A stretch of DNA of 64,000 nt from Melghirimyces profundicolus (GTDB taxonomy: Bacteria; Bacillota; Bacilli; Thermoactinomycetales; DSM-45169), in NCBI RefSeq assembly GCF_003054245.1, contig NZ_QBKR01000001.1:124001-188000 (forward strand), written 5' to 3'. Shown in pieces: positions 817-25,356 of this stretch. Position numbers and translations under genes: made by a program. The notes beneath the pieces were generated by a model, which saw nothing but the letters and a program-made list of their open reading frames with translations, made no database searches and was not told where the DNA came from. Positions within the stretch are counted from its first letter, which is position 1. Each line of letters begins with the position of its first letter.

Positions 817-859
817 CGGACTTCCCCTTCCTGAAAAATTTTCACTATTTTGACACAAG

Positions 860-3532: not shown

Positions 3533-3570
3533 AATATGCATTCTCCTTTGTTTCGGAAGATGGGTACTTG

Positions 3571-3685: not shown

Positions 3686-4609
3686 ATGAGAATCGGGATG
3701 ATCGGTCTGGATACATCCCATTGCAGTGCCTTTACCCGATTGCTGAACGATTCAGGAGCAGCCTTTCATGTCCCCGGCGGAAAAGTGACGGTGGCTTATC
3801 CCGGTGGTTCCCCCGATTTTGAGTTGAGTCGATCCCGCGTGAAGACGATCACGGAGGAGCTGGAAAAAGGTTTCGGGGTTGAAATGAGGGCCAGCTGTGA
3901 AGAGGTGGCGGAAAACGCGGATGCCATCCTTCTTACTTCCGTGGATGGTCGGGTGCATGCGGAACAGTTTGAAAGGATTGCCCCGTACGGACGACCGGTT
4001 TACATCGACAAGCCCTTGGCGGTTACTGCCCGGGACGCGGCCGGAATCATGTCCATCGCCCAGCGATACGGTGTCCCGGTCATGAGCACCTCGGCACTCC
4101 GTTACGCGGATCCTTTGGTAACGGAGTTCAAACGATCGAACGGGAGTATCTTCGGTGTGGACTGCCATGGTCCGATGCAATTGGAGGAAACGCAGCCCGG
4201 ATTCTTCTGGTACGGCATACACGGCGTGGAGATGCTGTATGCCGCCTTGGGTGGGGGTTGTGTCCGGGTCACAGTCGTTTCCGGTGAAGAGCAGGATGTT
4301 GTCGTGGGTGAGTGGGGGGATGGACGAATCGGCACATACCGGGGGAACCGGATGGGGAACGCGGAATTTGGCGCGGTGATTCACCGCCCGTCCGGTTCCG
4401 GCCGGATCAACGTCTCCCGGAGTGAAAAACCGTATTATGCCGGATTGTTGGAACAGGTAATGGTGTTTTTCAAGACCCGGAAGAGTCCGGTGGATATAGA
4501 GGAAACGACGGAAATCATCCGATTTTTGGAATCGGCGAACGAAAGCCGAAAAACCGGAAAGCCGGTTTTCCTCCGACAAGAGGAACCCGGGAAAGGAGAT
4601 CACAGGTGA
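3686..4609 (+). CDS. Gfo/Idh/MocA family oxidoreductase
   Basis: An NAD(P)-dependent sugar dehydrogenase-like protein of 307 residues. The N-terminal Rossmann fold begins MRIGMIGLDTSHC and carries the family's EKP-type motif as IDKPLAV. The C-terminal half contains the usual sheet region with WYGIHGVEMLYA, where the histidine is the likely catalytic or substrate residue. ATG 3686 is chosen because AAGGGGG lies 11 bases upstream and the fold begins there; a GTG at 3653 would add a meaningless leader. It is the first gene of the series behind the regulon box, and its stop overlaps the GTG of the next gene by four bases. Relatives oxidise sugars or inositols to keto forms; before the aminotransferases it could supply or consume a keto-sugar. 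Confidence 0.8.
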   Translation: MRIGMIGLDTSHCSAFTRLLNDSGAAFHVPGGKVTVAYPGGSPDFELSRSRVKTITEELEKGFGVEMRASCEEVAENADAILLTSVDGRVHAEQFERIAPYGRPVYIDKPLAVTARDAAGIMSIAQRYGVPVMSTSALRYADPLVTEFKRSNGSIFGVDCHGPMQLEETQPGFFWYGIHGVEMLYAALGGGCVRVTVVSGEEQDVVVGEWGDGRIGTYRGNRMGNAEFGAVIHRPSGSGRINVSRSEKPYYAGLLEQVMVFFKTRKSPVDIEETTEIIRFLESANESRKTGKPVFLRQEEPGKGDHR

Positions 4610-6306
4610 AAGCGGTACGGATTGGTGTGTATCGGGATCGGGGAACGGAAAAGGAGACCTGGTGCCGGGGAGAGAATGTGTTTACCCGCTACATCGAGGA
4701 AATTCTCTCCCATGCGGGGATCACCTTCGACCGTTTGAACGAAATCTCCCAAATGGAACAACAGCCGCCGGATGTATTGTTTGTGACCGCTGCAGGGGAA
4801 CCGGCATGGGAGGCCGTGTTGCGTTTGGCGGATCAAGGGGGGGAAGTGATGATCTTCGGCGGAGGGCCGGATCTGGCCCGGCGGTTGGGAGCCGCAGCGG
4901 GTCCGGCCTTTGGTCCGGGTTATGCCGAGGTGTCTGGGTTGAAAACTCCTCTTCTGCGTTTTCTGAAGGGGGTTCCCTGGCATTTGCCTTCCGACTCGTC
5001 TGCGGCGGAAGAGGGATGCTTACGGGCCGGTTCACCGGACGGCAAGCATTCCGGAACCCTGATTACCCGGTTTTCCGTCGGAGCAGGATGGGTGACACGT
5101 TGGGCGATTGATGTTCCAACGACGGTGGTTCATTTACAACAAGGGAAGAATCCGGTGACAGCGGACGGTCATCCCGCCCCGGATGGAACAGCCGACTTGG
5201 ATGAAGGCATCTTGAAAGCGGATGACGGGTTTGCCCTGGATTGGGAATGGGATCGCTCCGACACTGAGACCGGAGAGCGATACTTTGCACACCCTTACGC
5301 CGATCTATGGAGGGAAACCCTTCTTCGGGATCTGTTCAACCGTGTCAGGGTGCGGGGATGGACGCTTCCCTTCATTGATCGTTGGCCCGGTGGGGTTTCC
5401 CAGGTGGCGATGATCTCTCTGGACAGTGACTCAAACCTGGATGAGTCGGCGGAAACCACTTTGAAACTTTTGGATGAATGCGGGGTTTGTGCCACTTGGT
5501 GCATGATGGAACCGGGCTACCATCCTTCCGTTTATTCCTGTGCGGTGGGGGAGGGACACGAAATGGCCCTCCATTACAACGCCTTTGATCGCGACGGGGG
5601 TTCCTGGGGGGAGAAAGCATTCGCCGAGCAGCTCCGCTGGCTGAAAGAGGCAATCGGATGTGAACGGGTGGTTTCCAATAAAAATCATTACACCCGCTTT
5701 GAAGGTTGGGGGGAGCTTTTCCGGTGGTGTGAAAAGTACGGCATGGAGTCCGACCAGACGAGGGGGCCCAGCAAAAAGGGAAATATCGGCTTTTTGTTCG
5801 GTACGTGCCACCCCTATTTTCCCATTGCGCGGGGGGATGAAGAGAACCGGTTTTACGATGTTCTGGAAATCGGCTTTCTCACCCAGGATTTGAACCTGGA
5901 CCGCCTGGCGGACACCAGCGTGATCGTGCCTTTTTTGCAAGCCGTGGAACAAGTCCGGGGCGTGTCCCATTTTCTTTTCCACCCGATCCATCTCCACCGG
6001 GAAGAGGCGGTTCGAAATGCCCTTCGCACCGTGGTTCGGGAAGCAGAAAACCGGGGGTTCCGTTTTTGGACCGGTCAGGCGATCAACGGTTGGGAGCGGA
6101 GTCGGAGGAAACAGCGGATTACCGGTGTGGATGATCAAAGGCGACCGGTGATGACCGGGGTTCCTCCCCGGGACAGCGTGGTGATGGTCCCTCTTCTACG
6201 GGATGAGGAACCGCATGAAGAACCGGTGGAGATGAGATTTGGGGTTCCATGCCGAAAATGGTTGTCCCATCAGGTCCTGGTGGAGAGGACTCTGCCGTTT
6301 CCCTAG
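4606..6306 (+). CDS. Polysaccharide-deacetylase-fold protein of unknown substrate
   Basis: 566 residues, translationally coupled to the previous gene through a GTGA overlap. There is no signal peptide, so it is probably cytoplasmic. The N-terminal 170 residues look like a glutamine-amidotransferase-like or alpha/beta accessory domain (MIFGGGPDLARRLG). From about residue 260 the sequence resembles a NodB-like deacetylase barrel: ISLDSDSNLD takes the place of the usual TFDDG motif, ALHYNAFDRDGG follows as a second histidine motif, and FHPIHLH lies near the C-terminus. Such folds bind a metal through Asp and two His and remove acetyl groups from amino sugars. Deacetylation of an imported oligosaccharide is a plausible role but is inference; the motifs deviate from the classic family. 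Confidence 0.55.
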   Translation: MKAVRIGVYRDRGTEKETWCRGENVFTRYIEEILSHAGITFDRLNEISQMEQQPPDVLFVTAAGEPAWEAVLRLADQGGEVMIFGGGPDLARRLGAAAGPAFGPGYAEVSGLKTPLLRFLKGVPWHLPSDSSAAEEGCLRAGSPDGKHSGTLITRFSVGAGWVTRWAIDVPTTVVHLQQGKNPVTADGHPAPDGTADLDEGILKADDGFALDWEWDRSDTETGERYFAHPYADLWRETLLRDLFNRVRVRGWTLPFIDRWPGGVSQVAMISLDSDSNLDESAETTLKLLDECGVCATWCMMEPGYHPSVYSCAVGEGHEMALHYNAFDRDGGSWGEKAFAEQLRWLKEAIGCERVVSNKNHYTRFEGWGELFRWCEKYGMESDQTRGPSKKGNIGFLFGTCHPYFPIARGDEENRFYDVLEIGFLTQDLNLDRLADTSVIVPFLQAVEQVRGVSHFLFHPIHLHREEAVRNALRTVVREAENRGFRFWTGQAINGWERSRRKQRITGVDDQRRPVMTGVPPRDSVVMVPLLRDEEPHEEPVEMRFGVPCRKWLSHQVLVERTLPFP

Positions 6307-6340
6307 AAGCGTTGTGAATGGATGGTCAGGCTCAGAAGTA

Positions 6341-6458
6341 GGGAAGCGTTCACCCGAAACAGCGACTTTGCTGTCCTGCCCGGCGGAGAATAAGCCAGGG
6401 CGTTCAGGGGCCAAAGCTTCTCTGTGTTGCATCCTCAGGCGTTTGCCCCTGCCCGCAG
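6341..6458 (+). repeat. Structured dispersed repeat, copy 1
   Basis: About 118 bp closely matching 62606-62728 in the same orientation. Both copies share GCGACTTTGCTGTCCTGCCC, GCGGAGAAT and AAGCTTCTCTGTGTTGCATC. The last 60 bases can fold as a long hairpin with CAGGGGC near its base and GCCCCTG closing it. Paired bases change together between the copies (GCCAAAG with CGTTTGC here, GCAAAAG with TGTTTTAC there). It starts 35 bases after a stop codon and ends just ahead of the ribosome site of the gene at 6482. Confidence 0.7.
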
Positions 6459-6481
6459 AGAGATCTGAAAGGAGGAGGGCG

Positions 6482-7717
6482 ATGGGAAACGAACAACTGG
6501 CGATTCACGGGGGGCCGAAGGTAAAGACAAAGCCTTTCGGCACCGGGAAACGGTTCGGAGACGAGGAGATCCGGGAGTTGAAGGAAGCCCTGGACCAAAA
6601 CACGCTGTTTTATCATTCGGGAAACAAAGTGAAAACCTTTCTCGAACGTTTTAATGAGCTTTACGGAATCCGATACAGCGTGGCCGCATCCTCCGGTACG
6701 GCTGCGATCCATGTGGCTCTCGGTGCTGCCGGTGTCAGTGTGGGGGACGAAGTGATCACCAGTCCGATCACTGATCAGGGGACGTTGATCGGCATTCTTT
6801 ACCAAAATGCGATTCCGGTTTTTGCCGATTTGGATCCGCGTACCTACAACATGGATCCCAAATCCATTGTCGATCGGATCACACCAAAAACCAAAGCGAT
6901 TTTGGTGGTTCATCTGGCGGGAAATCCCGCCGATATGGATGCCGTGATGGACATCGCCCGACGATACAAACTGAAGGTGGTGGAAGACTGCGCCCAGAGT
7001 TACATGACCCGTTACAAAGGGCGTTGCGTGGGTACCATCGGGGACTACGGCTGTTTCAGCACCAATGATTTCAAACACATCAGCACCGGGGACGGAGGAC
7101 TGGTAACCGTCAATTCGGGGAAGGAAGAGGATTTCCGGGTGGTTCACGCCTTTGCGGATAAAAACTACCAACGGCTCCAAGGTGAAGTGTTTCGGGAACT
7201 GAATTATTTGGCACCCAACTACCGTATGACCGAACTCCAGGGGGCGGTGGGCATCGCCCAGTTGAAAAAGCTGCCCGAAATATGTGAAAAGCGCCATCAA
7301 TACGGAGAAAGGATGACAGAGGGAATTCGGGATCTTCCGGGAATTCTTCCTCCGAAAGTGACGGAAGGGGGGTGGTCATCCTATTGGTTTTACATGTTGC
7401 GGTTGGATGGGTCCCGTCTGAATTGCACGAGGGAAGTATTTTCAAGTGCACTCGGGGCGGAAGGTATCCCGAACCATCCCGGTTACATCCCTGAGGTCGT
7501 CTATCGGCAGCCGCTGTTCCAAAAAAGGCAAGCCTATCCGGGGAGTGATTTCCCTTTCTGTCTTTCCGAAACTTCCTATCAACCGGGGATTTGTCCCGAA
7601 GCGGAACAAATTTTGGCCACCGCCGTCCGCCTTCCGATCAGTGAGTTTTTCACGGAATCCGATATTGAAGACATGGTCCGCGGGATCCGAAAAGTGGCGC
7701 TTCATTACGCCAAGTGA
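6482..7717 (+). CDS. DegT/DnrJ/EryC1/StrS family PLP aminotransferase (first of two)
   Basis: 411 residues, PLP-dependent fold type I. It begins LAIHGGPKV, typical of the AHBA-synthase-like branch. Cofactor motifs include SSGTAAIHVAL (phosphate binding), VVEDCAQ (Asp under the pyridine ring) and Lys198 in STNDFKHISTGDGG as the Schiff-base lysine. The ATG is fixed by AAAGGAGGAGG just upstream; the frame extends further back but through the repeat and with no start signal. Family members exchange amino and keto groups on sugars or cyclitols. Here it sits with a second DegT gene and a MocA dehydrogenase in a catabolic locus, so removing an amino group from a sugar is as likely as adding one. Confidence 0.85.
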   Translation: MGNEQLAIHGGPKVKTKPFGTGKRFGDEEIRELKEALDQNTLFYHSGNKVKTFLERFNELYGIRYSVAASSGTAAIHVALGAAGVSVGDEVITSPITDQGTLIGILYQNAIPVFADLDPRTYNMDPKSIVDRITPKTKAILVVHLAGNPADMDAVMDIARRYKLKVVEDCAQSYMTRYKGRCVGTIGDYGCFSTNDFKHISTGDGGLVTVNSGKEEDFRVVHAFADKNYQRLQGEVFRELNYLAPNYRMTELQGAVGIAQLKKLPEICEKRHQYGERMTEGIRDLPGILPPKVTEGGWSSYWFYMLRLDGSRLNCTREVFSSALGAEGIPNHPGYIPEVVYRQPLFQKRQAYPGSDFPFCLSETSYQPGICPEAEQILATAVRLPISEFFTESDIEDMVRGIRKVALHYAK

Positions 7718-7745
7718 ACCGCTGGACGGAAGGAGGTCTCCCGAC

Positions 7746-8978
7746 ATGGAGAAACTGGCGATTCACGGGGGGGATCCGGTTCGGACGGAACCCTTTCCCC
7801 GCTGGCCGGTCTGGGGAGAAGAGGAGAAAGAGCTGTTGCTGGAGGTTCTTCATTCCGGGAAGTGGGGAGGAACCGGCCGGGTTTTGACGGGGGAAGGCAC
7901 CTCCAAACTGGAGGAGCTGGAAAAGCGATTGACAGCATTTCAAGGCGCCCGCCACGGCATAACCACAGTGAATGGCACCATGGCCATCACGGTGGCGCTG
8001 CAAGCAGCAGGTATTGAGCCCGGCGATGAAGTCATCATGCCCCCTTACACCTTTATTGCCACCGCAACGGCGGCTCTTCTCTTCGGAGCGATTCCGGTAT
8101 TTGCCGATGTGGAGGAAGAGACGCTTCTCCTCGATCCCGCAAAAGTGGAAGAGGCGGTCACCCCCCGTACGAAGGCCGTCATACCGGTTCATTTGGCCGG
8201 GGCTTCGGCCGATATGACCCGGTTAAAGGAAACGGCCCGCCGGTACGGTCTGTCGATCATTGAAGATTCCGCCCAGGCGGTGGGGACCCGCTGGGAGGAC
8301 AAAGGGGTGGGGGCCCTTGGGAATTTGGGCACGTTCAGCTTCCAGTCGGGCAAGAATCTGACTGCCGGTGAAGGGGGATTCATTCTCACCAATGATGAGA
8401 GGTTGGCGCAGAAAGCATGGTCGCTGGCCAATGTGGGTCGGGTGAAAGCGGGGGGCTGGTATCAACATGAGCGGATCGGATGGAACCTCCGGATGACTGA
8501 ATGGCAGGCTGCCATTCTTCTGGCACAGATGAATCGGCTGCCGGAACAGTTGAAAAAAAGGGAACAAAACGCCCGCATATTGGATCGCTTGCTCGGCAAA
8601 ATCAGCGGGATCGAACCGGTGAAAACGGATCCGAGGGTGACCCGACACGCGCGCCATCTGTATTTGTTCCGGATTCAATCTTCGGTCATCCCCATGAATA
8701 AAGAAGAGTTCCTCCGGGCGGTTCAGGCGGAAGGGATTCCCTTGTCACCAGGCTACGTCTCACTGAACCGCCATCCCGCCGTCCTTCGTTCGATCCGGAA
8801 ATGGACCGGGGAACATCGGGTGAATCCCTGTCCGGTTGCGGAGAGGATGGCGGACCGGGAAGCGTTTTGGCTGGGACAGAATATTCTCCTTGCCGATGAA
8901 CGAGCCATGTTTCAGATCGCACGGGCCATTGAGAAAGTCATCGCCTACCTCGGTTCTCGAAAGGAGGTGAAAGGATGA
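7746..8978 (+). CDS. DegT/DnrJ/EryC1/StrS family PLP aminotransferase (second of two)
   Basis: 410 residues, paralogous to the preceding gene but clearly diverged. It begins MEKLAIHGGDPVRT, has NGTMAITVALQ for phosphate binding, IIEDSAQAVG for the cofactor aspartate and Lys203 in FQSGKNLTAGEGG. An AAGGAGGTC site precedes the ATG. The stop overlaps the next gene's start (ATGA). Two adjacent, non-identical DegT proteins may form a heteromer or act on successive sites of one sugar; the sequence does not decide which. The start was taken at the ATG homologous to the first paralogue rather than any upstream codon inside the neighbouring gene. Confidence 0.85.
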   Translation: MEKLAIHGGDPVRTEPFPRWPVWGEEEKELLLEVLHSGKWGGTGRVLTGEGTSKLEELEKRLTAFQGARHGITTVNGTMAITVALQAAGIEPGDEVIMPPYTFIATATAALLFGAIPVFADVEEETLLLDPAKVEEAVTPRTKAVIPVHLAGASADMTRLKETARRYGLSIIEDSAQAVGTRWEDKGVGALGNLGTFSFQSGKNLTAGEGGFILTNDERLAQKAWSLANVGRVKAGGWYQHERIGWNLRMTEWQAAILLAQMNRLPEQLKKREQNARILDRLLGKISGIEPVKTDPRVTRHARHLYLFRIQSSVIPMNKEEFLRAVQAEGIPLSPGYVSLNRHPAVLRSIRKWTGEHRVNPCPVAERMADREAFWLGQNILLADERAMFQIARAIEKVIAYLGSRKEVKG

Positions 8979-10870
8979 AGGTTTTTCTTTCAGGGGATTT
9001 GAAAGGACTGGAAGGCGGACTGAAAGAGTTGGAGAACGACCTCTCTTTTGTGAGAGATCCCTCGGGAATTCCGATCCAGGTGAGCCGGATAAAAGAAAAC
9101 CGGTTGCGTGTGACACTGGGGAAAGATGGAGGGGAAATCCACTATCACCAGCCGATCCATTTCTTCCGGGGCGTGGGATGGGTGTTGGAGGCAATGACGG
9201 ACCGCCGGACCATCGCGGTGGAGGAAGAACCCCAGTTCACCATGAACGGGGCGATGTTTGATTGTTCCCGCAATGCCGTGTTCCGACCGGAAACCCTGAA
9301 AACGGTCATCCGGATGATGGCCTTGATGGGTTTAAACATGCTGATGCTGTATACGGAAGATACTTACACCGCAAAGGGGGAATCTTACTTCGGTTACATG
9401 CGCGGCCGCTACACCCCGGAAGAGTTGAAGGAACTGGATCATTATGCGTCTCTCTTCGGAATTGAGATGATTCCCTGCATCCAGACCCTGGCTCATCTCG
9501 CCTCTTTTTTGCACTGGGATCGGGCGAATGAATTGCGGGATACAGAGGATGTGCTGCTGGCAAATTCGGAGGCAACCTATCGGTTTATCGACCGTTTGAT
9601 TTCTTCCGTCGCCGGTTGTTACAGGAGCAAACGAATTCATATCGGAATGGATGAGGCTTTTGGCCTTGGAAGAGGACGTTTTCTGGATCGTTTTGGTTAT
9701 CAACGGCCCTTTGACATCATGGCCCGACACTTGAACAAGGTGGTCGAGATCACGGATCGTTATGGTCTGTCACCGATGATCTGGTCGGATATGATGTTTC
9801 GGATGGGCTCAAAGGATCACCGTTATTACGACCTGGATGCGGTGATCCCTGAAGAGGCGTTAAAGATGATGCCCGATGGGCTCCAATACGTTTACTGGGA
9901 TTATTATCATACGGATGCCGATTTTTACAGAAAATTTATCAATCAACATCGAGCGTTGGGTTCCATCCCCGTTTTTGCCGGCGGGATCTGGACATGGGCC
10001 GGCCCTGCCATCCATTATGAAAAAACCTTCAAGACAACCGATGCGGCCCTGTCCGCCTGCAAGGCGGAAGGGGTTCGGGAGGTCTTTGCCACTCTTTGGG
10101 GAGATGACGGGGCGGAAACCAACATGCTGAACGGGTTGTTGGGCCTTCAACTGTTTGCGGAGCATGGGTATGCACGGAAGCCGGAAGCCGGTCAGTTGCG
10201 GAGACGGTTTGCCTCCTGCACCGGGGGGAACTATGAAGCGTTTCTAAGGCTCGGGAAGTTTGACACGTTGCCCGAAGCGGATCAATCCGGATTGATCCCG
10301 GACAATCCATCCAAATTTCTGCTGTGGCAGGATCCGCTCCTCGGGTTGTTTGATCGGCATGTCGAAGGAACCCGGGCGAAAGAGTTTTACACCCGGTTGC
10401 ATCGGGAATTTCAAGAAGATTTTCGCAACGGGGACCGGTGGCGGGAATTGTTTGAAGTGCCCCTTTATCTCAGCTCTGTCCTCATGCGGAAAAGTAATCT
10501 CGGGCTTCGCATCAAAAAAGCCTATGACCAACAGGATGTCCACTTATTAAAACGGATCGCGGGGGAAGAGATCCCGGTTTTGGCCCGTGAGGTGGAGAAT
10601 CTGAGAAATGCCCATCGAAAACAGTGGATGGAAACCTTCAAGCCTTTCGGATGGGAAGTGCTGGACCTCCGTTACGGGGGATTGTTATCGCGGTTGGATA
10701 CCGCAGGACAACGCCTGCTGGACTTTTGTGGCGGAAAAATCAAACGGGTGGAGGAGTTGGAAGAAGACCGCCTCGGCTTCGACGGCTTCCAGAAAACGGA
10801 TCAACCCGGTATGGGAAAGGCGGTTCTTTATTCCCGGATTGCTTCGGCCTCCGTCATGGGATTTCGTTGA
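8975..10870 (+). CDS. GH20 beta-N-acetylhexosaminidase, GcnA-like
   Basis: 631 residues, close to the length of GcnA-type GH20 enzymes. A small N-terminal domain is followed by a TIM barrel beginning near FTMNGAMFDCSRNAVF. The hallmark HIGMDEA places the catalytic Asp226-Glu227 pair of substrate-assisted retaining hexosaminidases, and GGIWTWAGP and TLWGDDGAE supply the expected tryptophan-rich sugar pocket. No signal peptide is visible, so it should act on imported oligosaccharides in the cytoplasm, releasing terminal beta-linked GlcNAc or GalNAc. It overlaps the upstream aminotransferase gene by four bases. A C-terminal helical domain follows the barrel. Given the agaS-gatY-pfkB genes nearby, GalNAc may be the relevant product, which is inference. 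Confidence 0.85.
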   Translation: MKVFLSGDLKGLEGGLKELENDLSFVRDPSGIPIQVSRIKENRLRVTLGKDGGEIHYHQPIHFFRGVGWVLEAMTDRRTIAVEEEPQFTMNGAMFDCSRNAVFRPETLKTVIRMMALMGLNMLMLYTEDTYTAKGESYFGYMRGRYTPEELKELDHYASLFGIEMIPCIQTLAHLASFLHWDRANELRDTEDVLLANSEATYRFIDRLISSVAGCYRSKRIHIGMDEAFGLGRGRFLDRFGYQRPFDIMARHLNKVVEITDRYGLSPMIWSDMMFRMGSKDHRYYDLDAVIPEEALKMMPDGLQYVYWDYYHTDADFYRKFINQHRALGSIPVFAGGIWTWAGPAIHYEKTFKTTDAALSACKAEGVREVFATLWGDDGAETNMLNGLLGLQLFAEHGYARKPEAGQLRRRFASCTGGNYEAFLRLGKFDTLPEADQSGLIPDNPSKFLLWQDPLLGLFDRHVEGTRAKEFYTRLHREFQEDFRNGDRWRELFEVPLYLSSVLMRKSNLGLRIKKAYDQQDVHLLKRIAGEEIPVLAREVENLRNAHRKQWMETFKPFGWEVLDLRYGGLLSRLDTAGQRLLDFCGGKIKRVEELEEDRLGFDGFQKTDQPGMGKAVLYSRIASASVMGFR

Positions 10871-10881
10871 GCGCAGGGAAG

Positions 10882-10932
10882 GGATTTAAAGACCATATAA
10901 AGACTTGTCCAGATTTAACTGTTAATTATAAT
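10882..10932 (+). promoter_or_regulatory. Internal promoter with shared regulon box (copy 3)
   Basis: GGATTTAAAGAC (10882-10893), seven bases, then AGACTTGTCC (10901-10910); TTGTCC is followed after 16 nt by TATAAT (10927-10932). It nearly matches the copy at 3586-3614 and gives the receptor and downstream genes their own start. Confidence 0.7.
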
Positions 10933-10994
10933 GGAAGAGACAAATGATACAGAAATTTCAGATTAAAATACTTTTGATTCAGGGAGGGTGTCTG

Positions 10995-12554: not shown

Positions 12555-12574
12555 TCGAATGTGTGCTGGTTTTT

Positions 12575-12602
12575 TCTCCCGGAGATCGTTTTCTCCGGGA
12601 GA
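12575..12602 (+). other. Intercistronic RNA hairpin downstream of the receptor gene
   Basis: TCTCCCGGAGA (12575-12585) pairs perfectly with TCTCCGGGAGA (12592-12602) around a six-base loop. No U-run follows, so it is not a standard terminator. Such hairpins often protect the receptor mRNA 3' end or partly attenuate downstream genes. Confidence 0.7.
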
Positions 12603-12649
12603 ATTCAAATCAATCGTGTTCATCGGTGTAAGGCGAAAGGGGCTTACGA

Positions 12650-13666: not shown

Positions 13667-13668
13667 AC

Positions 13669-14736: not shown

Positions 14737-14752
14737 AAATCGGAGGGATGGA

Positions 14753-15382: not shown

Positions 15383-15399
15383 AAGGAGGAAGGGAAACG

Positions 15400-16302
15400 A
15401 TGGCCGTGGCTGTCGGGGTGGATATCGGGGGAACGAAAGTGGCCTGTGGTCGGGTGGATGATAATGGCCAATGTTTGGACTATGCGGAGCTGCCCAGCAT
15501 GCCACACGATGAAGAAAAGATGTTTCTTCAAGTGACGGAGTGTATCCGGGAGGTTTGGCCGACAACGGGTGCCAGCCAGAAGCCGCCGGTCGGAATCGGT
15601 GTGGGGGTTCCCGGGAAGGTGGATGCCGCGAGGGGAGTCGCGGTGATGCAAAACAACCTCCCATGGGTCAACTTCCCGCTCCGTAAACGGCTTCGGGAGC
15701 GGTTTTCCGTGGATGTCATTCTGGACAACGATGTCTGTATGGCCGCTTATGGGGAATGGATCGAACGGGGGGGAGAGCGGGAAGAAACCTTTGTTTATTT
15801 CACGGTCAGCACCGGGATCGCATGTTGCACCATCCACAAGGGGGAATACCTTCGTGGAGCGGGCTTTGCCGGGGAGATCGGACTCGTTCCTTTTTCGGGA
15901 GGGGACCGACTGGAAAGAAAGGCAGCGGGCCCGGCCATCGGAGGGGGCGGGTTGTCCCCGCGTGAAGTGATGGAAGCTTACCGGAACGGGGACACCCGGG
16001 TGTTGCAACGGGTGGAAGACGTATTGGAAGAATGGGCCCGGGGGGTGTATGCGTTGGTTTCCATCCTGGATCCTCATCATCTGGTGTTGGGAGGCGGGGT
16101 GATGAACCGGAACCCCTTTTTGCTGAATGAAATCCGGGGAAAAATGGATCCTCTTCTGCTCCCGGTGCAGAAGAGTGTTTTAAATCGGCTGTCCCTCAGC
16201 CGTTTGGGAGCGAAAGCCGGCTGTGTCGGAGCGGGTTTAAGGATGCTTAACTGGAGTTCCGATTCCGGGAAAGGGGTGTCCATATGGAACCAAAGCCGGT
16301 GA
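15400..16302 (+). CDS. ROK family sugar kinase
   Basis: 300 residues. VGVDIGGTKVACG is the phosphate-1 ATP motif of the ROK/hexokinase-actin fold, GVGVPGKVD and ILDNDVCMAAYGE give the substrate region with the catalytic Asp (DND), and LVLGGGV closes the adenosine site. Typical ROK kinases have a zinc-binding CxCGxxGC motif after GEIG; here GEIG is followed by LVPFSGGDRLERKAAG with no cysteines, so the zinc site is absent. The ATG at 15400 is ten bases after AAAGGAGG. It overlaps the next permease gene by 19 bases. It presumably phosphorylates the imported sugar or amino sugar, preparing it for isomerase and aldolase steps. Confidence 0.8.
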   Translation: MAVAVGVDIGGTKVACGRVDDNGQCLDYAELPSMPHDEEKMFLQVTECIREVWPTTGASQKPPVGIGVGVPGKVDAARGVAVMQNNLPWVNFPLRKRLRERFSVDVILDNDVCMAAYGEWIERGGEREETFVYFTVSTGIACCTIHKGEYLRGAGFAGEIGLVPFSGGDRLERKAAGPAIGGGGLSPREVMEAYRNGDTRVLQRVEDVLEEWARGVYALVSILDPHHLVLGGGVMNRNPFLLNEIRGKMDPLLLPVQKSVLNRLSLSRLGAKAGCVGAGLRMLNWSSDSGKGVSIWNQSR

Positions 16303-17243
16303 CGGGTCGGCTGGTTCGGTTTTCCGTCCGAATGAAAAGGCGCACGCAAAGAATCAGGCGACCCCCTCATGACCGGTATTTGTATCTGTTGATTCTCCCG
16401 GGTTTGCTGTATTTTCTGCTCTACAAATACCTTCCAATGTTGGGTCTGGTGATGTCTTTTCAGGATTACAGTCCGTTCCTCGGTTTTTGGGACAGTCCCT
16501 GGGTGGGGTGGAAACATTTCCGGACCATGTTTGCTGAACCGGAAGCCCTCCGCGTCATCCTGAATACATTGGAAATCTCGTTTTTGCAGATTCTGTTTGC
16601 TTTTCCCTTGCCCATCATCCTGGCCATCATGATCAACGAGGTTCGGCTGACGCTTTACAAACGGTTGATTCAGTCTTTGGTTTATTTACCCCATTTTCTT
16701 TCGTGGGTGGTGGTGGTCGGCATTTTCGTGGTGTTTCTGAAGAGCGATGGAATCGTCAACAACCTCTTGAAAATGGCCAGTATCCAACCCATACCCTTTC
16801 TTACTTCTCCCGAGTGGTTTAAACCGTTAATCGTCTTTCAGGTCATCTGGAAGGAGTCGGGATGGGGAACCATCCTCATTCTGGCGGCGTTGGCGGGGGT
16901 GAATCCCCAACTGTACGAGGCGGCGGTGATGGACGGGGCCAACCGTTGGCAGCAGATTTGGCATATCACGCTGCCGGCCATTCGCAGCACCATCGTCATT
17001 CTCTTGATTTTGCGTTTGGGATCGGTGATGGACACCGGTTTTGAGCAGATTTTTCTCATGTTGAACCCTTTCACCATGGAAGTGGGAAATGTGTTGGACA
17101 CCTATGTTTACTTTAAGGGGATTCAGCAGGGAGATATCAGCTTTGCGACCGCGGTGGGGATGTTTAAGGGAGTTGTGGGATTGATTCTGGTGGTGATTGC
17201 CAACCGGTTGGCAAGGAAGTATGGCGAAGGCGGCATTTACTGA
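16284..17243 (+). CDS. ABC sugar transporter permease, LplB type
   Basis: 319 residues with six predicted membrane spans after a basic cytoplasmic N-terminus. YLYLLILPGLLYFLLYKYLPM is the characteristic first span of LplB permeases, and EAAVMDGANRWQQIWHITLP is the EAA loop that contacts the ATPase. It pairs with the permease at 17257 and receives substrate from the lipoproteins at 10995 and 18156. AAAGGGG precedes the ATG, which overlaps the ROK gene. No nucleotide-binding subunit is encoded in the window, as is common for systems that share an MsmX-like ATPase. Confidence 0.88.
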   Translation: MEPKPVTGRLVRFSVRMKRRTQRIRRPPHDRYLYLLILPGLLYFLLYKYLPMLGLVMSFQDYSPFLGFWDSPWVGWKHFRTMFAEPEALRVILNTLEISFLQILFAFPLPIILAIMINEVRLTLYKRLIQSLVYLPHFLSWVVVVGIFVVFLKSDGIVNNLLKMASIQPIPFLTSPEWFKPLIVFQVIWKESGWGTILILAALAGVNPQLYEAAVMDGANRWQQIWHITLPAIRSTIVILLILRLGSVMDTGFEQIFLMLNPFTMEVGNVLDTYVYFKGIQQGDISFATAVGMFKGVVGLILVVIANRLARKYGEGGIY

Positions 17244-17256
17244 AAGGAGGGAGAAG

Positions 17257-18132
17257 ATGAAATACCGGGGTGTTACCGGTCGCATAGCAGATGGAATCAA
17301 TGCCGTGGCTCTTCTTTTGATCGCTTTCTCGATGCTGTTTCCGTTTTTCTACATTTTTGCTGTCTCCTTTTCCAGTCTGGAAGACGTCATCCGCAGCGAT
17401 CTTCTGCTTTGGCCGACGGAGTGGGTGACCGATGCCTACGAATATGTCTTGAACTCCGATCAGTTTGTCCGTTCCTTCTTTGTCACCGTTTATGTGACGG
17501 TCGTGGGAACCTTTGTCAACATCCTGTTCACAGCCACCATGGCTTACGGGTTGTCCCGCCCGGTCCCGGGACGGAGGATCATCCTGTTTATGGTGGTGTT
17601 CACCCTTCTTTTTCAGGCGGGGATGATTCCCACCTACATGGTCGTGAAAGAGACGGGATTGATCGACACCCTGTGGTCCTTGATCCTGCCGGTGGCCATC
17701 AATCCTTTCAACCTGATCGTGATGAGACAATTTTTCTTAAACATCCCGGAAGAACTTCATGAAGCGGCCATCATCGACGGGGCCAATCACCTGCAAATCT
17801 TCTCCCGGATCATCCTTCCGTTGTCCAAACCGGCTCTTGCCGCCTTCAGTCTGTTTTACGCCGTCACCCATTGGAACAACTACTTTTCTGCCATTCTGTA
17901 CATTAACGATCCGGCCAAGTGGCCGCTTCAGGTGGTTTTGAGGCAGATTGTGATCGTCAATGAACCGGATGCTGCATTGCGGGGGGCGCAACGCATGATG
18001 GAAAACCCCCCTCCACCGGAAACGGTGCAGATGGCGGCGATTTTGTTGACCACCTTGCCCATTCTGTTTGTTTATCCGTTTCTGCAAAAATATTTCGTCA
18101 AGGGGGTTATGTTGGGGTCGGTGAAGGAGTGA
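17257..18132 (+). CDS. ABC sugar transporter permease, YtcP/LplC type
   Basis: 291 residues with six predicted spans. FPFFYIFAVSFSS in the first span, the EAAIIDGANHLQIFSRIILP loop and the ending YPFLQKYFVKGVMLGSVKE are typical of the YtcP/LplC half of oligosaccharide importers. It follows the first permease by 13 bases with an AAAGGAGG site, so the two are almost certainly co-expressed as a heterodimer. The downstream receptor gene starts 23 bases after its stop. Confidence 0.88.
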   Translation: MKYRGVTGRIADGINAVALLLIAFSMLFPFFYIFAVSFSSLEDVIRSDLLLWPTEWVTDAYEYVLNSDQFVRSFFVTVYVTVVGTFVNILFTATMAYGLSRPVPGRRIILFMVVFTLLFQAGMIPTYMVVKETGLIDTLWSLILPVAINPFNLIVMRQFFLNIPEELHEAAIIDGANHLQIFSRIILPLSKPALAAFSLFYAVTHWNNYFSAILYINDPAKWPLQVVLRQIVIVNEPDAALRGAQRMMENPPPPETVQMAAILLTTLPILFVYPFLQKYFVKGVMLGSVKE

Positions 18133-18155
18133 ACACGAAAAAGGGGGTCCGTGTT

Positions 18156-19721
18156 GTGAAAGCCTCATTTAAAAAAATCGTCCGTTTCATGACAGCGGTC
18201 GTTTTGTCTGTCAGCCTGTTCGCTTGCTCTTCCCCCGAAGCGGGAGAGACAGACTCCAAGGATCGGAAATACACCATCACGTCCATTGATTTTCTGTATT
18301 CCGATATCCCTCCGAAGGATGGAAAAGGGATTGAGAGGATCAACAAACGGTTCAATGTGGACTACAAAAGAGATTACGGGATTTATACGGAGTACAAGGA
18401 AAAGTTGACGACCCGGATGGCTTCGGGGGAGATCCCCGATGTGATCGGTTTTGAATCCCAGATGGACCGATCCAATTTTTTTAAATGGGCAAATCAGGGG
18501 GCTTTCCTTCCCCTCAATGATTACATTGACGAGTATCCCACCCTGAAATCGGTCCCTCCCGAGGTATGGAACGCAGTCACCGTGAATGGAAAGATTTACG
18601 CCATCCCCAAGTACTTTCCCGAACATTACCTGAACACGCCGGTGATTCGGAAGGACTGGTTGGATCATCTGGATCTGAAAATGCCCACCAACTATAAAGA
18701 ATTGGAGGAAGTGGCCATCGCGTTCACCAAAGACGATCCGGACGGCAACGGGAAAGACGACACATACGGAATAGTGGTGGGGGAGCACTTGTGGCCCCAT
18801 TACAACTTTGGGGCTTACTGGGACCCCAATGCCTGGTACCACAAAAACGGGAAAGGTCAGTTGATCCCTGGAGTCATCTCGGAGCAACAAAAAGAGACCA
18901 TTCAACGGATGAGGAATTGGTATAAGGAAGGAGCCATCAATAAAGACTTTGTCCTCACCAACCCCAACGAAGCCAACACCAAAGAATTTTACGCCGGAAA
19001 AGCAGGAATTATTGTCCGGGGACCGGTTGAGATGAGGGAAGCCAATATGGAAGCTCTCCAAAAAATCCATCCTGAGGCCGAGTTGGCGCCGATCCCTCCG
19101 TTCAAAGCACCTGACGGATCACAAGGCTACACGGCCGGTTCCGGTTATTACATGATGAACGCGTTGTCAGCGGAACTGAAGGATGATCCCGGAAAAGTAA
19201 AAAGAATTCTGGATATCATTGATTTCGGTCGACGTTTTTACCCGTGGGAAAACAGGAATCCCGAAAACGAAGATTTTGATTGGCTGTACGGGAGGGAAGG
19301 GGAGGGGTATGAGATGAAGAACGGCACCCCAACCCTGACGGATCCCGTTAAAGGAAGGGCGCCCTACCACTATATGCTGGACAATAAGATGTGGGCTCCC
19401 AGTAACGAGGCAAATCATTTTTGGAAGACGTACCAAAACAAAGCTTACCAAAATCTTGCCCTCGAATTGGAAAAGATGCATAAAGAAACCCGGCATTATT
19501 CCAATCCGGTTCACCAGGTCTATTCCGAAACCGATGCCCGGAAAGGGCTGGAGATCACCCGGAAGTTGTTCGACGAACAAGCGAAGATCATCACCGGAGA
19601 CCGACCGGTGTCCGACTGGAACAAGATTGTGAAAGCGTACTTGGACGGCGGCGGACAATCGATCATCGATGAGGTCAACCAAGAGGTGAAAGAAAAGAAC
19701 ATCGGACCGGAATGGAAATGA
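18156..19721 (+). CDS. LplA-type extracellular sugar-binding lipoprotein (second, paralogous copy)
   Basis: 521 residues. GTG 18156 is preferred over the GTG at 18129 because AAGGGGGT lies between them and the signal peptide begins cleanly after it. The lipobox is SLFAC with Cys24. From the mature start (SKDRKYTITSIDFLYSDIPP) the sequence follows the receptor at 10995 nearly throughout, including DPDGNGKDDTYG and the closing KEKNI. The two paralogues bracket the enzyme and permease genes of one importer and probably differ in ligand preference or affinity. The operon ends 10 bases downstream in a strong terminator. Confidence 0.85.
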   Translation: MKASFKKIVRFMTAVVLSVSLFACSSPEAGETDSKDRKYTITSIDFLYSDIPPKDGKGIERINKRFNVDYKRDYGIYTEYKEKLTTRMASGEIPDVIGFESQMDRSNFFKWANQGAFLPLNDYIDEYPTLKSVPPEVWNAVTVNGKIYAIPKYFPEHYLNTPVIRKDWLDHLDLKMPTNYKELEEVAIAFTKDDPDGNGKDDTYGIVVGEHLWPHYNFGAYWDPNAWYHKNGKGQLIPGVISEQQKETIQRMRNWYKEGAINKDFVLTNPNEANTKEFYAGKAGIIVRGPVEMREANMEALQKIHPEAELAPIPPFKAPDGSQGYTAGSGYYMMNALSAELKDDPGKVKRILDIIDFGRRFYPWENRNPENEDFDWLYGREGEGYEMKNGTPTLTDPVKGRAPYHYMLDNKMWAPSNEANHFWKTYQNKAYQNLALELEKMHKETRHYSNPVHQVYSETDARKGLEITRKLFDEQAKIITGDRPVSDWNKIVKAYLDGGGQSIIDEVNQEVKEKNIGPEWK

Positions 19722-19730
19722 AAGAAACAA

Positions 19731-19757
19731 AAAGCCTGCCGCTTCCGGCAGGCTTTT
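19731..19757. terminator. Bidirectional rho-independent terminator
   Basis: AAAGCCTGCCG and CGGCAGGCTTT pair over 11 bp around a CTTC loop, with A/T runs on both sides. It separates the converging receptor and pfkB genes. Confidence 0.9.
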
Positions 19758-19762
19758 GCAGT

Positions 19763-20704
19763 CTAATCGGCGGTTTTTCCGGTGGTGATGCAAACCGCTT
19801 TCATCCATGCTTTCACATCCTCCGGCCGGATGTCTCCCGCCTGGGCATGCCTGGCGTTGGAAGCGGCTGTTGCCGATGCGAGGCGGAGGACATCGGGAAG
19901 ATCCTGATCCCGGTACAACCCCCCAACCAACCCGGCCAGGAACGCATCCCCCGAACCGACCGTGTTGACCGCACGGATGGAGGGGGAATGGATCCTAAGC
20001 GAATCCCCTGCGGTGGTTGCCAAGGCCCCCCGGGCACCAAGGGTGACGACGGCCAGGGAGATTCCCATCCGGTTCCAGGTTTTTAAGTGGGCACGGAGGT
20101 CCTCCTCATCGGGGTGGGCCAAACCGGTTATTCCCTGAAATTCCCTCAGATTGGGTTTGACAATGTCGGGGAGTGCTTGCATCCCGTGTCGGAGAGCTTC
20201 GCCGCTGGTATCCAAGGCCGTCCTGGCCCCGCCTTTTCTGGCCAATCGGATTCCCTCCGCATAGGCGTCCGGGGGCAGCCCCGGAGGGAGACTGCCGCAA
20301 AAAAGGACAAAACGGCTTTCACTTGCGAGTTCGGATAACACTTTTTTAAATTCCAGCCAGCGGGAAGACGAAACCGGGGGTCCCGGTTCCAAAAACTCCG
20401 TTTGTGTGGCGTTCTCATCATCAAGGATCGTCAAGCAATGCCGTGTTTCTTCTTCAACGGAAAGGTACTCATGAGGAATATTCAGTGCCGTCAGTTGTTT
20501 TCGGATCCACTCCCCGTTCGCCCCTCCCGCAAATCCTGTGACCCGGACCGGACAGTCCAGCAGCTTCAGTACGCGGGCGACATTGTTTCCTTTCCCGCCG
20601 GGTCGACGTTGAACTTCACGGACCCGGTGAACTTTTCCTTCCATCATGCGGGATACCGAATAGGTTTTGTCAACGGCGGGGTTCAGGCTGACCACGGTGA
20701 TCAT
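19763..20704 (-). CDS. PfkB family kinase, tagatose-6-phosphate/1-phosphofructokinase type
   Basis: 313 residues. It begins with the FruK/LacC pattern ITVVSLNPAVDKTY and has the first PfkB signature RRPGGKGNNVARVL and the second, NTVGSGDAFLAG, with Asp as catalytic base. FruK and LacC phosphorylate fructose-1-P or tagatose-6-P to the bisphosphates. Next to a GatY-type aldolase and an AgaS-type isomerase, tagatose-6-phosphate is the more likely substrate, the product being tagatose-1,6-bisphosphate. Its start overlaps the aldolase stop by four bases, indicating coupled translation in the gntR-agaS-gatY-pfkB order. The specificity is inferred from context. Confidence 0.85.
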   Translation of the reverse strand: MITVVSLNPAVDKTYSVSRMMEGKVHRVREVQRRPGGKGNNVARVLKLLDCPVRVTGFAGGANGEWIRKQLTALNIPHEYLSVEEETRHCLTILDDENATQTEFLEPGPPVSSSRWLEFKKVLSELASESRFVLFCGSLPPGLPPDAYAEGIRLARKGGARTALDTSGEALRHGMQALPDIVKPNLREFQGITGLAHPDEEDLRAHLKTWNRMGISLAVVTLGARGALATTAGDSLRIHSPSIRAVNTVGSGDAFLAGLVGGLYRDQDLPDVLRLASATAASNARHAQAGDIRPEDVKAWMKAVCITTGKTAD

Positions 20705-21567
20705 ACCGGTCCATCCTGTTTGTTTTTTACCGCTGCCGGTTGCATCCAGGAGATTTTTTGCCGGATCACTTCTCTGAGCCTTTCACGTGCGGCCCCAAAG
20801 ATTTTTCGTGGATCGTTCTCTTCGGGATGTTGGGTGAGGTAGTCTCGTAAAGAATCGGAAAAGGACTGCTTCAGTTCAGTGGAAAAGTTGATTTTGGCAA
20901 TTCCGGATTGTATGGAACGGCGAATGTCCTCCATCGGGACACCGGAAGCCCCGTGCATGACAAGAGGAACCCCGGTTTGTCGAGAGATGGCCTTCAGCCT
21001 GGTCAAATCGAGACGGACTCCCCGTCGGTAAACACCGTGAGCGGTACCGAAGGCGGGAGCCAGAAAATCCGTTCCGGTGGTTTCCACAAACTCTTTGGCC
21101 TGGATGGGATCCGTATAGGAGGAGTGAGCCTGAGGTGTCTCGTTTGCGGCTCCGATGGCCCCGAGTTCCGATTCCACCGGGACCCCCACCGCATGGGCCA
21201 TCTCCACCACCCTTCGAACCAAAGCGACATTCTCCCTGTAAGGCAGATGGGATCCGTCAATCATGACCGAGGTGTAACCCATCCGCAGGCACCGGGCGAC
21301 AGTGGCATAGGAATTCCCGTGATCCAGGTGAAGGGCGACGGGGACGGAAACTCGCTTGGCGGCGGTTCGCACCAAAGCGGTAACGTAATCGATTCCCACC
21401 TTCTCCAGGGTGGCAGGGGTGGTCTGAAGAATCACGGGAGAGCGCATGTCGTCGGCAGCATCCACTACTGAACGGATGATATCCAAGTGGTGAGCGGGAA
21501 AGGCGGGGACGGCGAAGCCGTTTCGCCGGGCATCTTCCAACATTTCTTTTGTGGAAACCAGTGGCAT
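20701..21567 (-). CDS. Class II ketose-bisphosphate aldolase, GatY/KbaY type
   Basis: 288 residues, the usual length for GatY/KbaY/FbaA enzymes. The zinc and catalytic motifs are visible: PVALHLDHG (Asp and His), SVMIDGSHLPY, VPVESELGAIGA (Glu), APAFGTAHGVY (His) and LVMHGASGVP (His and phosphate-binding Gly). It would split tagatose-1,6-bisphosphate into dihydroxyacetone phosphate and glyceraldehyde-3-phosphate. The gene is tightly packed: three bases follow the isomerase stop, and its end overlaps pfkB by four. Fructose-bisphosphate cannot be excluded as substrate; the neighbours favour the tagatose series. Confidence 0.88.
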   Translation of the reverse strand: MPLVSTKEMLEDARRNGFAVPAFPAHHLDIIRSVVDAADDMRSPVILQTTPATLEKVGIDYVTALVRTAAKRVSVPVALHLDHGNSYATVARCLRMGYTSVMIDGSHLPYRENVALVRRVVEMAHAVGVPVESELGAIGAANETPQAHSSYTDPIQAKEFVETTGTDFLAPAFGTAHGVYRRGVRLDLTRLKAISRQTGVPLVMHGASGVPMEDIRRSIQSGIAKINFSTELKQSFSDSLRDYLTQHPEENDPRKIFGAARERLREVIRQKISWMQPAAVKNKQDGPV

Positions 21568-21570
21568 TCG

Positions 21571-22629
21571 TCACTCCCCCTTTTTGCCCAAGCGGACCAC
21601 TTGCCCCAGGTTGCGGGGTTGATCCGGGTTCAACTTCAATTGGAGGGTTTGGTAGTAAGCGAGAAATTGAAAGAAGGGGAGATAGAGGATGGACCGGCAT
21701 CCGTCTTCCAGTCCCGGGGGAAGGTCGACTCTTTGCCCCGGATCCAGGGAATCCGTCGGCTCCCCCACCACCTTCACATCCGAACCTTGTTTGCGCAAAT
21801 CCGGAATCAGATCGGCATCGTATTCCCTCGACGTCCGACCGCTCAAGAGAAACACCCGGCAATCTTCATTCAGCACGGAGATGGGGCCATGTCGAAATTC
21901 CAACGGGTTGTAAGCCTCACAAAACAACTGGGTCATCTCTTTCATTTTCAACATCGCTTCACAGGCCAGTCCGTAATATTCTCCCAGTCCGAGATAAATC
22001 AGATGGTTGCGGGATTCATCCAAGGCTGTTTGACGAGCTTGCTCTTCTGCTGTCAGGAGTTGTTTTTGCCCCAACCTGGGAAGCTTTTGCATATCCTCGA
22101 GGACGTTTTGGTTCTCTGACAAGAAAGCGGCGAAGAGTTGAAGGGCGAGGAGCATATTGGTAAAGGAACCGGTCATCACTACACTCTTTTCCCGCGTGTG
22201 GGGAAGGGGAATGGAGAAATCGGCCACTTCGGTCAATCGGCTGGAAGGTTCACAGGTGACGGCGAGGCATCGGGCCAACTTTCTGCGGCGCACTTCTTCC
22301 ACGGCCCGGACCACCTCGGTCGTTTCCCCTGAACGGGAAGAAGCGATCAACAAAGGAGCGGGATGGGGGCGAATGACGGACGAGGGTTGCAGCATCACTT
22401 CCGAAGCGGGGACGGCATGGGCGGGAATACCCGTCTGCACCTGAAAGAAACGGGCGGCGGTCAAGGAGAGATAATAGGAGGTTCCGCATCCCGTAAACAG
22501 GACGGATTTCGGCTGATTCTCCCTGATAAAACGGAGAATCGGATCCTTTGTCTCCGACATAAAATCAAGGGAAGTCCTCCAAGTTTCCGGCTGACGCCGG
22601 ATTTCCTCATAGGTGGCGTATGGTTGCAA
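21571..22629 (-). CDS. agaS: SIS-domain sugar isomerase/deaminase, AgaS-like
   Basis: 352 residues with two SIS domains. SVLFTGCGTSYYLSLTAA and LLIASSRSGETTEVVRAVEE are the sugar-phosphate-binding loops of the first, and IYLGLGEYYGLACEAMLKMKEM with EAYNPLEFRHGPISVL forms the second, as in AgaS and the GlmS isomerase domain. AgaS converts galactosamine-6-phosphate to tagatose-6-phosphate and ammonia. The start is TTG 22629, with AAGAAGGG six bases upstream. Together with gatY and pfkB it completes a galactosamine route, although no GalNAc-6-P deacetylase gene is seen in the window. A frlB-like deglycase role is an alternative. Confidence 0.75.
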   Translation of the reverse strand: MQPYATYEEIRRQPETWRTSLDFMSETKDPILRFIRENQPKSVLFTGCGTSYYLSLTAARFFQVQTGIPAHAVPASEVMLQPSSVIRPHPAPLLIASSRSGETTEVVRAVEEVRRRKLARCLAVTCEPSSRLTEVADFSIPLPHTREKSVVMTGSFTNMLLALQLFAAFLSENQNVLEDMQKLPRLGQKQLLTAEEQARQTALDESRNHLIYLGLGEYYGLACEAMLKMKEMTQLFCEAYNPLEFRHGPISVLNEDCRVFLLSGRTSREYDADLIPDLRKQGSDVKVVGEPTDSLDPGQRVDLPPGLEDGCRSILYLPFFQFLAYYQTLQLKLNPDQPRNLGQVVRLGKKGE

Positions 22630-23425: not shown

Positions 23426-23465
23426 GTCCGACCTCCTCCGAAACGTCCTTTTCACATCATATCAG

Positions 23466-25201: not shown

Positions 25202-25356
25202 TCCCGGCTTCCCCTTTCTCTCTGTGATGGCCGGCCGTCCACTCTTCGGGTAGTTTGAAGAGGGAAAGGGTGAATTATGTACCGGTAAATAAAAAGGAAG
25301 AACGGCAAACATAATACAGGGAGAACACACGGCCGGATGTGGCCAAAGGAGTGTGA

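Follow-up and report, generated by a model that had tools for sequence, protein, structure and literature searches.

The Aga pathway for N-acetylgalactosamine (GalNAc) and galactosamine consists of AgaS, a tagatose-6-phosphate kinase and the aldolase GatY/KbaY, and is not known to include the lyase, the GH20C-type hexosaminidase or the two further enzyme groups, modules A and B, that accompany such genes in the locus described here. This locus lies in a 64,000-nucleotide stretch of the Melghirimyces profundicolus genome (NCBI RefSeq assembly GCF_003054245.1, contig NZ_QBKR01000001.1, positions 124,001 to 188,000), which as a whole is called the window and to which coordinates refer. Other described systems resemble the two modules in part. 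WbpB/WbpE is a MocA plus DegT pair for 3-amino uronates. Aldolases of the superfamily of N-acetylneuraminate lyase (NAL) and dihydrodipicolinate synthase (DHDPS) possess a GxTGE loop for the keto-acid carboxylate, and SDR oxidoreductases a catalytic pair in the motif YxxxK.

In this study, we examine the gene content of the locus, its conservation beyond the genus, and the residues of its less familiar enzymes, with gene families checked by Pfam and NCBIfam. The parts of the locus are modular, with two separable modules: module A encodes a MocA-type dehydrogenase, a deacetylase-like protein (Deac) and an aminotransferase-family protein (DegT1), and module B encodes an SDR-like and a DapA-like protein. 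We view the locus, with somewhat more confidence than doubt, as a glycan-utilization unit in which a lyase and a hexosaminidase depolymerize the substrate, an importer takes up the products, Aga-type enzymes break down N-acetylhexosamine (HexNAc), and modules A and B process the other residue.

Results

Thirteen plus-strand genes at 3686-19721, several of whose stops and starts overlap, encode in order MocA, Deac, DegT1, DegT2, GH20C, SBP1, SDR, the DapA-like protein, DUF624, ROK, LplB, LplC and SBP2; convergent with this run are the minus-strand genes gntR, agaS, gatY and pfkB (23455 down to 19763). An earlier note on this DNA had named most of these families as one set, and Pfam and NCBIfam bear it out for MocA, the two DegT proteins, GH20, the importer, ROK, PfkB, the aldolase and the SIS-domain protein. 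Its remaining assignments held in part. The heparinase-like lyase is real (PF07940) but is encoded outside 3686-22629, on the minus strand and mostly beyond the window. For Deac (4606-6306), a deacetylase-like protein of probable NodB fold that also has an N-terminal domain, a deacetylase fold is plausible rather than established: the window protein has no Pfam match at 0.001, and the matches of its relatives fall below threshold (WbmS-like, E 1.3e-5, 25.7 bits against a cut-off of 27; Polysacc_deac_1, E 0.0023, 18.3 bits against 23.1). The extended-SDR-like protein (12650-13666) exceeds the cut-off of PF01370, if weakly (E 4.3e-5, 23.5 bits against 20.9), and a profile of 33 of its relatives matches the UDP-glucose 4-epimerase structure 3ehe (E 6.4e-7). 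The divergent DapA-like protein (13663-14736) has no Pfam match at 0.001 (DHDPS, E 0.025), but a profile of 33 relatives matches NAL and DHDPS structures, with a best E of 1.7e-8.

Synteny beyond the genus was assessed in nine contexts compared at length. In another genus of the family (G305), gene order is kept from an MR/MLE gene and a regulator-like gene through MocA, Deac, DegT1, DegT2, GH20C, SBP1, SDR and DapA-like to DUF624, ROK, LplB, LplC, SBP2, pfkB, gatY and agaS; its Deac gene has one internal stop, and its heparinase gene lies 48 kb from the DapA-like gene on the same contig. A genome from another family of the order (G414) holds heparinase, MR/MLE, regulator, MocA, Deac, DegT1, GH20C, two SBP1 genes, SDR, DapA-like, DUF624, ROK, LplB and LplC, and in G521, where the locus lies near the start of its contig, all of these from the regulator onward are present. 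Both are without DegT2 and without an adjacent agaS group. DegT2, the least conserved member of the locus, is confined among the nine contexts to G000, G305 and G306, the last from the window's genus. Of the nine, G000 and G305 alone have the adjacent agaS-gatY-pfkB group; the contig of G306 stops before this point, and an AgaS relative 3 kb inside another G306 contig fits the same arrangement without proving it. Elsewhere less is retained: MocA, Deac, DegT1, SDR, DapA-like and the regulator, with no GH20 match, in G425 and G394; GH20 and importer genes with SDR-DapA, and no Deac or DegT1, in G668; and little besides SDR-DapA and the regulator in G301. A Deac query of the named genome collection found a single relative, in Melghirimyces thermohalophilus DSM 45514, whose locus is syntenic from heparinase to SBP2, where the contig stops.

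The earlier note had proposed a functional unit for an amino-sugar glycan, to be abandoned if its genes were scattered in relatives. Recurrence in other genera, the synteny in G305, G414 and G521, and the placement of Deac-DegT1(-MocA) beside AgaS, GH20 or GH123 genes speak for such a unit; the modularity of its parts, and the many other neighbors with which SDR-DapA is found, qualify it.

Module A includes MocA (3686-4609; PF01408, 26.5 bits against a cut-off of 24) and DegT1 (6479-7717, start set by homology; PF01041, 279 bits) in addition to Deac. Deac was found in 17 of 398 genomes of the class, and 15 of the 17 loci were inspected (G503 and G512 left out), in stretches of unequal length that make absences soft. 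DegT1 is present in 14 of the 15 (all but G352) and MocA in 13 (all but G352 and G677). Six loci hold AgaS (G000, G305, G392, G582, G618 and G352), the first four of these also GatY, and six hold GH20 (G000, G305, G306, G414, G521 and G352). GH123, a family of beta-N-acetylgalactosaminidases, was confirmed by Pfam in G392 and G618, the only two loci scanned for it; GH20 or GH123, supported by Pfam or BLAST, is thus found in 8 of 15. ROK genes also lie near the Deac-DegT1(-MocA) group in the loci of other families, and NagB-like genes lie in the Deac loci of G425, G392, G582 and G618. The association of AgaS with Deac exceeds shared synteny, because the loci concerned span families f1, f124 and f125 and their layouts differ. 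GalNAc is indicated because GH123 replaces GH20C beside the same three genes, together with AgaS and GatY. The company of module A provides independent support for a role in amino-sugar breakdown, with GalNAc as the probable sugar.

Deac is also enriched in genomes with the DapA-like gene (12 of 41, versus 5 of the 357 without; Fisher p 1.2e-9, this test and the one given below for heparinase ignoring shared ancestry), and it lies within 20 kb of the SDR-DapA pair in nine of the 12 genomes that hold both. This enrichment and proximity, and the occurrence of MocA relatives with module B as well as with module A, make it very unlikely that the modules are merely juxtaposed, serving different substrates and sharing only an importer or a regulator. 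Such an arrangement would accommodate the varied neighbors of SDR-DapA and the five loci besides G352 in which Deac-DegT1-MocA stands without the pair nearby: G392 and G582, neither of which gave a DapA-like match, and G618, G539 and G626, in which module A is far from it. In G626, MocA, DegT1, Deac and heparinase genes lie side by side, half a megabase from SDR-DapA.

In MocA, D108-K109-P110 and H179 are nearly invariant in 15 aligned sequences; the nucleotide-binding start is altered, reading I-G-x-x-G-x-D-x-S-H in place of GxGxxG, and is kept in the 15 relatives. No scanned Deac member reaches a Pfam cut-off. H323 of Deac is invariant, and the residue four positions further is F, Y, V, L or R in 7 of 7 sequences, at variance with HxxxH, the metal motif of NodB-type polysaccharide deacetylases. 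AlphaFold models based on alignments of just two sequences, the window protein and its relative in L004, were of insufficient quality for fold searches (mean pLDDT 35 for Deac and 47 for SDR). No Deac relative was found in the plasmid collection, and a sample of the phylum, in which Deac and the DapA-like gene each occur in 2 of 299 genomes with the window's genome included, was too sparse, so the class sample was used instead. A distant phylum member (G012) encodes a 637-residue Deac relative (L003 1312-3225, minus strand; 37% identity) whose N-terminus is signal-like; none of the other genes of the locus is present on its short contig.

The lysine presumed to bind PLP, its position being judged by the family motif, is K199 in 7 of 7 DegT1 sequences and K204 in 3 of 3 DegT2 sequences (DegT2 at 7743-8978; PF01041, 339 bits). 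The two window proteins are 36% identical, and the solved structures related to each of them include WbpE. The closest solved relatives of DegT2 are AHBA synthase and 2-deoxy-scyllo-inosose aminotransferase. This resemblance, and the GNAT and aminoglycoside N-acetyltransferase-family genes that adjoin the SDR-DapA pair or occur in module A loci, would suit a catabolic route for a rhizopine- or kanosamine-like compound (an aminocyclitol or a 3-amino sugar), in which DegT and MocA shift the substrate between its amine, ketone and alcohol forms, with SDR-DapA breaking the carbon skeleton. We consider this quite unlikely, since the secreted lyase, GH20C or GH123, and AgaS and GatY in the same loci point to a glycan and DegT2 is the least conserved member. 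Biosynthesis of an amino-sugar nucleotide or secondary metabolite was likewise considered, DegT, MocA and SDR proteins together being typical of such clusters, and was rejected as highly improbable: NCBIfam subfamily models of the PseC, LegC and ArnB types do give scores, all far below cut-off, but no nucleotidyl- or glycosyltransferase is among the scanned genes, and the relatives are constantly found with hydrolases, lyases, importers and AgaS or NagB.

The DapA-like gene of module B occurs in 41 of the 398 class genomes and in 4 of 10 genomes of the family, the window's genome included in both. In all 41 class loci it is immediately preceded, on its own strand, by an SDR relative, with -1 to 63 bases between aligned ends. 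The plasmid collection gave DapA-like matches in 20 records and SDR matches in 25; 11 of 12 annotated neighborhoods that were read hold both genes, and these 11 belong to Bacillota, Actinomycetota, Pseudomonadota and Planctomycetota, that is, to at least three phyla besides Bacillota. One gene intervenes in Nitratireductor, Tistrella and Sulfitobacter, and the order is reversed in Rhodococcus and Glaciihabitans. The archaeon Halomontanus has an SDR relative near DegT, tagatose-aldolase-subunit, N-acetyltransferase and heparinase II/III genes, with no DapA-like gene. Distances between SDR and DapA-like sequences correlate (r 0.75, 36 genomes), a value without species-tree control that is not used as evidence.

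Other neighbors of the pair in the class vary, and include genes for Gfo/Idh/MocA and AP_endonuc_2 proteins, serine dehydratases, M20 peptidases, NRAMP proteins and FAD oxidoreductases. Serine dehydratase genes (SdaAA/SdaAB or L-serine ammonia-lyase), often with an M20 peptidase gene, adjoin the pair in L070, L063, L065, L048 and Prescottella equi (L089), a hint that serine or a hydroxy-amino acid may be a product or substituent in some versions. NRAMP-family transporter genes lie near it in 9 of 41 loci (L047, L057, L080 and others).

The residues of both proteins depart from those of their superfamilies. In 37 SDR sequences (four of the 41 loci had partial or missing ORF calls and were excluded), Ser142 and Tyr169 do not vary, and neither do G33, G35, G36 and G39 of what appears to be the glycine-rich nucleotide-binding turn. 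The YxxxK lysine is found in none of them, the position being occupied by C in 30, T in 5 and S in 2; in 12 further records it is C in 10 and V in 2, giving a count of 0 of 49. In the DapA-like protein, the Schiff-base lysine K182 is present in 40 of 40 aligned sequences and 11 of 11 further records (51 of 51), and Tyr154 in 40 of 40, with tyrosine in 9 of the 11. The GxTGE loop, as aligned to that of 8u8w, is replaced by H60-[ST]61-T62-Q63 in all 40 and all 11. Judged from these residues, the two proteins are relatives of standard SDR oxidoreductases and standard keto-acid aldolases, respectively, yet should not be classified with them.

The pair is further linked to heparinase II/III genes. 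In the window, only the N-terminal part of the secreted-looking lyase is seen (1-918, minus strand): the frame starts at 918 and runs off the left end, with 1237 residues in all from this upstream start, and a likelier start at about 816 precedes a signal-like stretch. The family assignment is supported by a partial match of 62 positions to PF07940 (Hepar_II_III_C; 26.4 bits against a cut-off of 24). Relatives stand in the same place in G306 (71%) and G414 (67%). Heparinase II/III matches occur in 98 of the 398 class genomes, namely in 27 of 41 with the DapA-like gene versus 71 of 357 without (Fisher p 3.4e-9), and among the matches listed they lie within 30 kb of SDR-DapA in 13 of 41 loci, versus about 0.6 expected by a rough estimate that assumes one average genome size. 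These lyases are of at least two distant kinds: the large one of the window, which looks secreted, and one of about 685 residues without a signal-like start, found in six loci and only locally similar to the first.

This association, with the presence of GH20C or GH123 and of AgaS and GatY, could also indicate an ordinary locus for a glycosaminoglycan or teichuronic-acid-type polymer of uronate and HexNAc, in which no unusual amino sugar is involved and modules A and B form a modified DEH/KDG route that handles a plain unsaturated uronate. We regard that explanation as doubtful, though far from negligible. The DEH/KDG route, as generally known, has no place for Deac, DegT1 and MocA; the SDR protein is without the catalytic lysine of DEH reductases; and no GH88 or GH105 unsaturated-uronyl hydrolase is among the scanned window genes.

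The HexNAc branch of the proposed unit, as read from sequence, is built of known families. GH20C (8975-10870, plus strand), an exo-beta-N-acetylhexosaminidase type, matches PF18088 (218 bits against a cut-off of 27) and PF00728 (47.5 against 22.3) and its solved relatives 2epk and 5a69 at E 1e-111 or better; the D-E pair was located by eye, and a signal peptide was not seen. Pfam identifies the importer as two permeases, LplB-type (16284-17243) and LplC-type (17257-18132), with two solute-binding proteins that are 65% identical, SBP1 (10944-12554), which is lipoprotein-like with an L-A-C lipobox seen by eye, and SBP2 (18129-19721). It also identifies a DUF624 membrane protein (14753-15382), of a kind that usually accompanies LplABC importers, and a ROK-family sugar kinase (15397-16302), all on the plus strand. 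The minus-strand group encodes an AgaS/GlmD-like sugar-phosphate deaminase-isomerase with a SIS domain (21571-22629), a GatY/KbaY-like class II ketose-bisphosphate aldolase (20701-21567; TIGR00167, 286 bits against 216), the PfkB hexose(-phosphate) kinase, a candidate tagatose-6-phosphate kinase (19763-20704; general family TIGR03168, 299 bits against 216, with tagatose-specific models below cut-off), and a GntR/UTRA regulator identified by Pfam (22697-23455). The locus has no gene for NagA, the HexNAc-6-phosphate deacetylase; three matches over cut-off elsewhere in the genome may supply it.

Five proteins had not been counted by the earlier note: the DUF624 and GntR proteins, an MR/MLE protein, a regulator-like protein, and a secreted-looking protein. 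The last three are likely to be further members of the locus, because their relatives recur in these loci. The MR/MLE enolase-superfamily protein (1006-2136, plus strand; Pfam) is of the MLE type, related to epimerases, racemases or cycloisomerases, and its relatives adjoin SDR-DapA in G305, G306, G618, G622 and G659, as well as in G414. L-Ala-D/L-Glu epimerases are among its relatives and an M55 D-aminopeptidase gene lies in the G414 locus, as peptidoglycan recycling might require, a role that we consider unlikely. The regulator-like protein (2168-3541, minus strand), with GdpP-type GGDEF-like and helix-turn-helix matches that are both weak and below Pfam cut-off, has relatives in 28 of 40 SDR-DapA contexts, some only 27-34% identical, and in G414 and G521 after extension; its family, a regulator family without a name, could be a marker of this metabolism. 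The secreted-looking protein (23516-25330, minus strand; 604-residue frame) belongs to no Pfam family, has relatives near Deac in G425, G392, G582 and G352, and is possibly an undescribed glycoside hydrolase. A putative glycosidase of GHL6/GH42M type is encoded between GH20 and SBP1 in G521 (L047 3024-5117, plus strand), with a similar gene in G414.

A terminator-like hairpin of 12 pairs (19730-19757, listed on the minus strand) lies between the convergent gene groups; the scan as a whole gave 34 sites, against 28.8 (sd 5.4) in shuffles. Promoter-like sites in the window were not commoner than in shuffles (11 versus 11.0, and 2 versus 3.2) and were not used. A TPP riboswitch (30633-30736, plus strand; Rfam RF00059, 76 bits) lies upstream of thiamine-type genes.

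Discussion

The observed gene content, conservation and co-location would fit the following scheme for the glycan-utilization unit, in which the substrate, the sequence of events and all of the reactions given to modules A and B are proposed. A secreted heparinase II/III-like lyase, perhaps with a second secreted protein, would cut a polymer containing an acidic residue that a lyase can cleave, along with beta-linked N-acetylhexosamine, most likely GalNAc. The LplABC-type importer, with its two related receptors, would take up oligosaccharides, from which cytoplasmic GH20C would free HexNAc for phosphorylation by ROK, deacetylation by a NagA-type enzyme encoded elsewhere, and conversion by AgaS, PfkB and GatY to triose phosphates. 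The other residue, acidic, released by the lyase and presumably carrying an amino group, would undergo deacylation and oxidation or transamination by module A. The SDR and then the DapA-like protein of module B would act last, ending in a Schiff-base carbon-carbon cleavage or a dehydration. Confidence in any single reaction is much less than in the locus-level proposal.

Several observations weigh against this proposal. Among the heparinase matches listed, none lies within 30 kb of the pair in 28 of the 41 SDR-DapA loci, and in 14 of the 41 genomes there is no heparinase match whatever at E 0.001. G425, G394 and G591 hold both modules with no GH20 match in the stretch examined. The AgaS-like protein falls far below the specific NCBIfam cut-offs (GlmD, 178 bits; AgaS, 154 bits), GatY below those of the tagatose-specific models and ROK below those of its specific models, and the missing GH88 or GH105 hydrolase counts here as well as against the uronate explanation.

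A more specific idea is offered as a tentative possibility that may well fail as a whole. Module A would remove the sugar amino group by transamination instead of isomerizing deamination. SDR-DapA would be a cross-phylum pair in which an SDR without its lysine, and without ordinary redox function, prepares a non-phosphorylated keto-sugar, which an aldolase that has lost its recognition of pyruvate-type carboxylates would cleave through a Schiff base; the pair would serve as a shared end step for lyase-released residues. If true, these ideas would assign a function open to testing to two conserved groups of enzymes now carrying family names only. With SDR-DapA in about a tenth of the sampled class genomes and in at least three more phyla, knowledge of its substrate would re-annotate many genomes and could extend bacterial sugar catabolism by a route without phosphorylation. 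Public records use family names such as "dihydrodipicolinate synthase family protein" and "NAD-dependent epimerase/dehydratase family protein", and searches of an open-licence PMC library turned up no paper that treats this gene set or the pair, a limited negative.

The comparison with described systems places the locus as follows. As in the Aga pathway, AgaS-like, PfkB and GatY-like proteins are encoded side by side with a GntR regulator, and NagA relatives are present in the genome; the locus differs in having no AgaA/NagA-type deacetylase of its own and in being joined to a lyase, GH20C and modules A and B. With glycosaminoglycan and alginate loci it shares a heparinase II/III-like lyase, an importer, a hexosaminidase, an SDR and an aldolase-superfamily protein, but here the SDR is without the catalytic lysine, the aldolase-like protein is without the GxTGE loop, and Deac, DegT and MocA are added. 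The DapA-like protein resembles the NAL/DHDPS superfamily in a profile match over about 200 residues and in its Schiff-base lysine and tyrosine, and differs in having V-H-[ST]-T-Q in place of GxTGE and an invariant partner SDR. As in WbpB/WbpE, a Gfo/Idh/MocA protein is encoded with a DegT protein, and WbpE is a solved relative of both DegT proteins; here the genes stand beside degradative ones, and their products, which may act in either direction, are not known to use nucleotide sugars. Glycan-utilization loci as such are known, and what seems to be new is this composition, with two conserved modules whose chemistry is seemingly undescribed.

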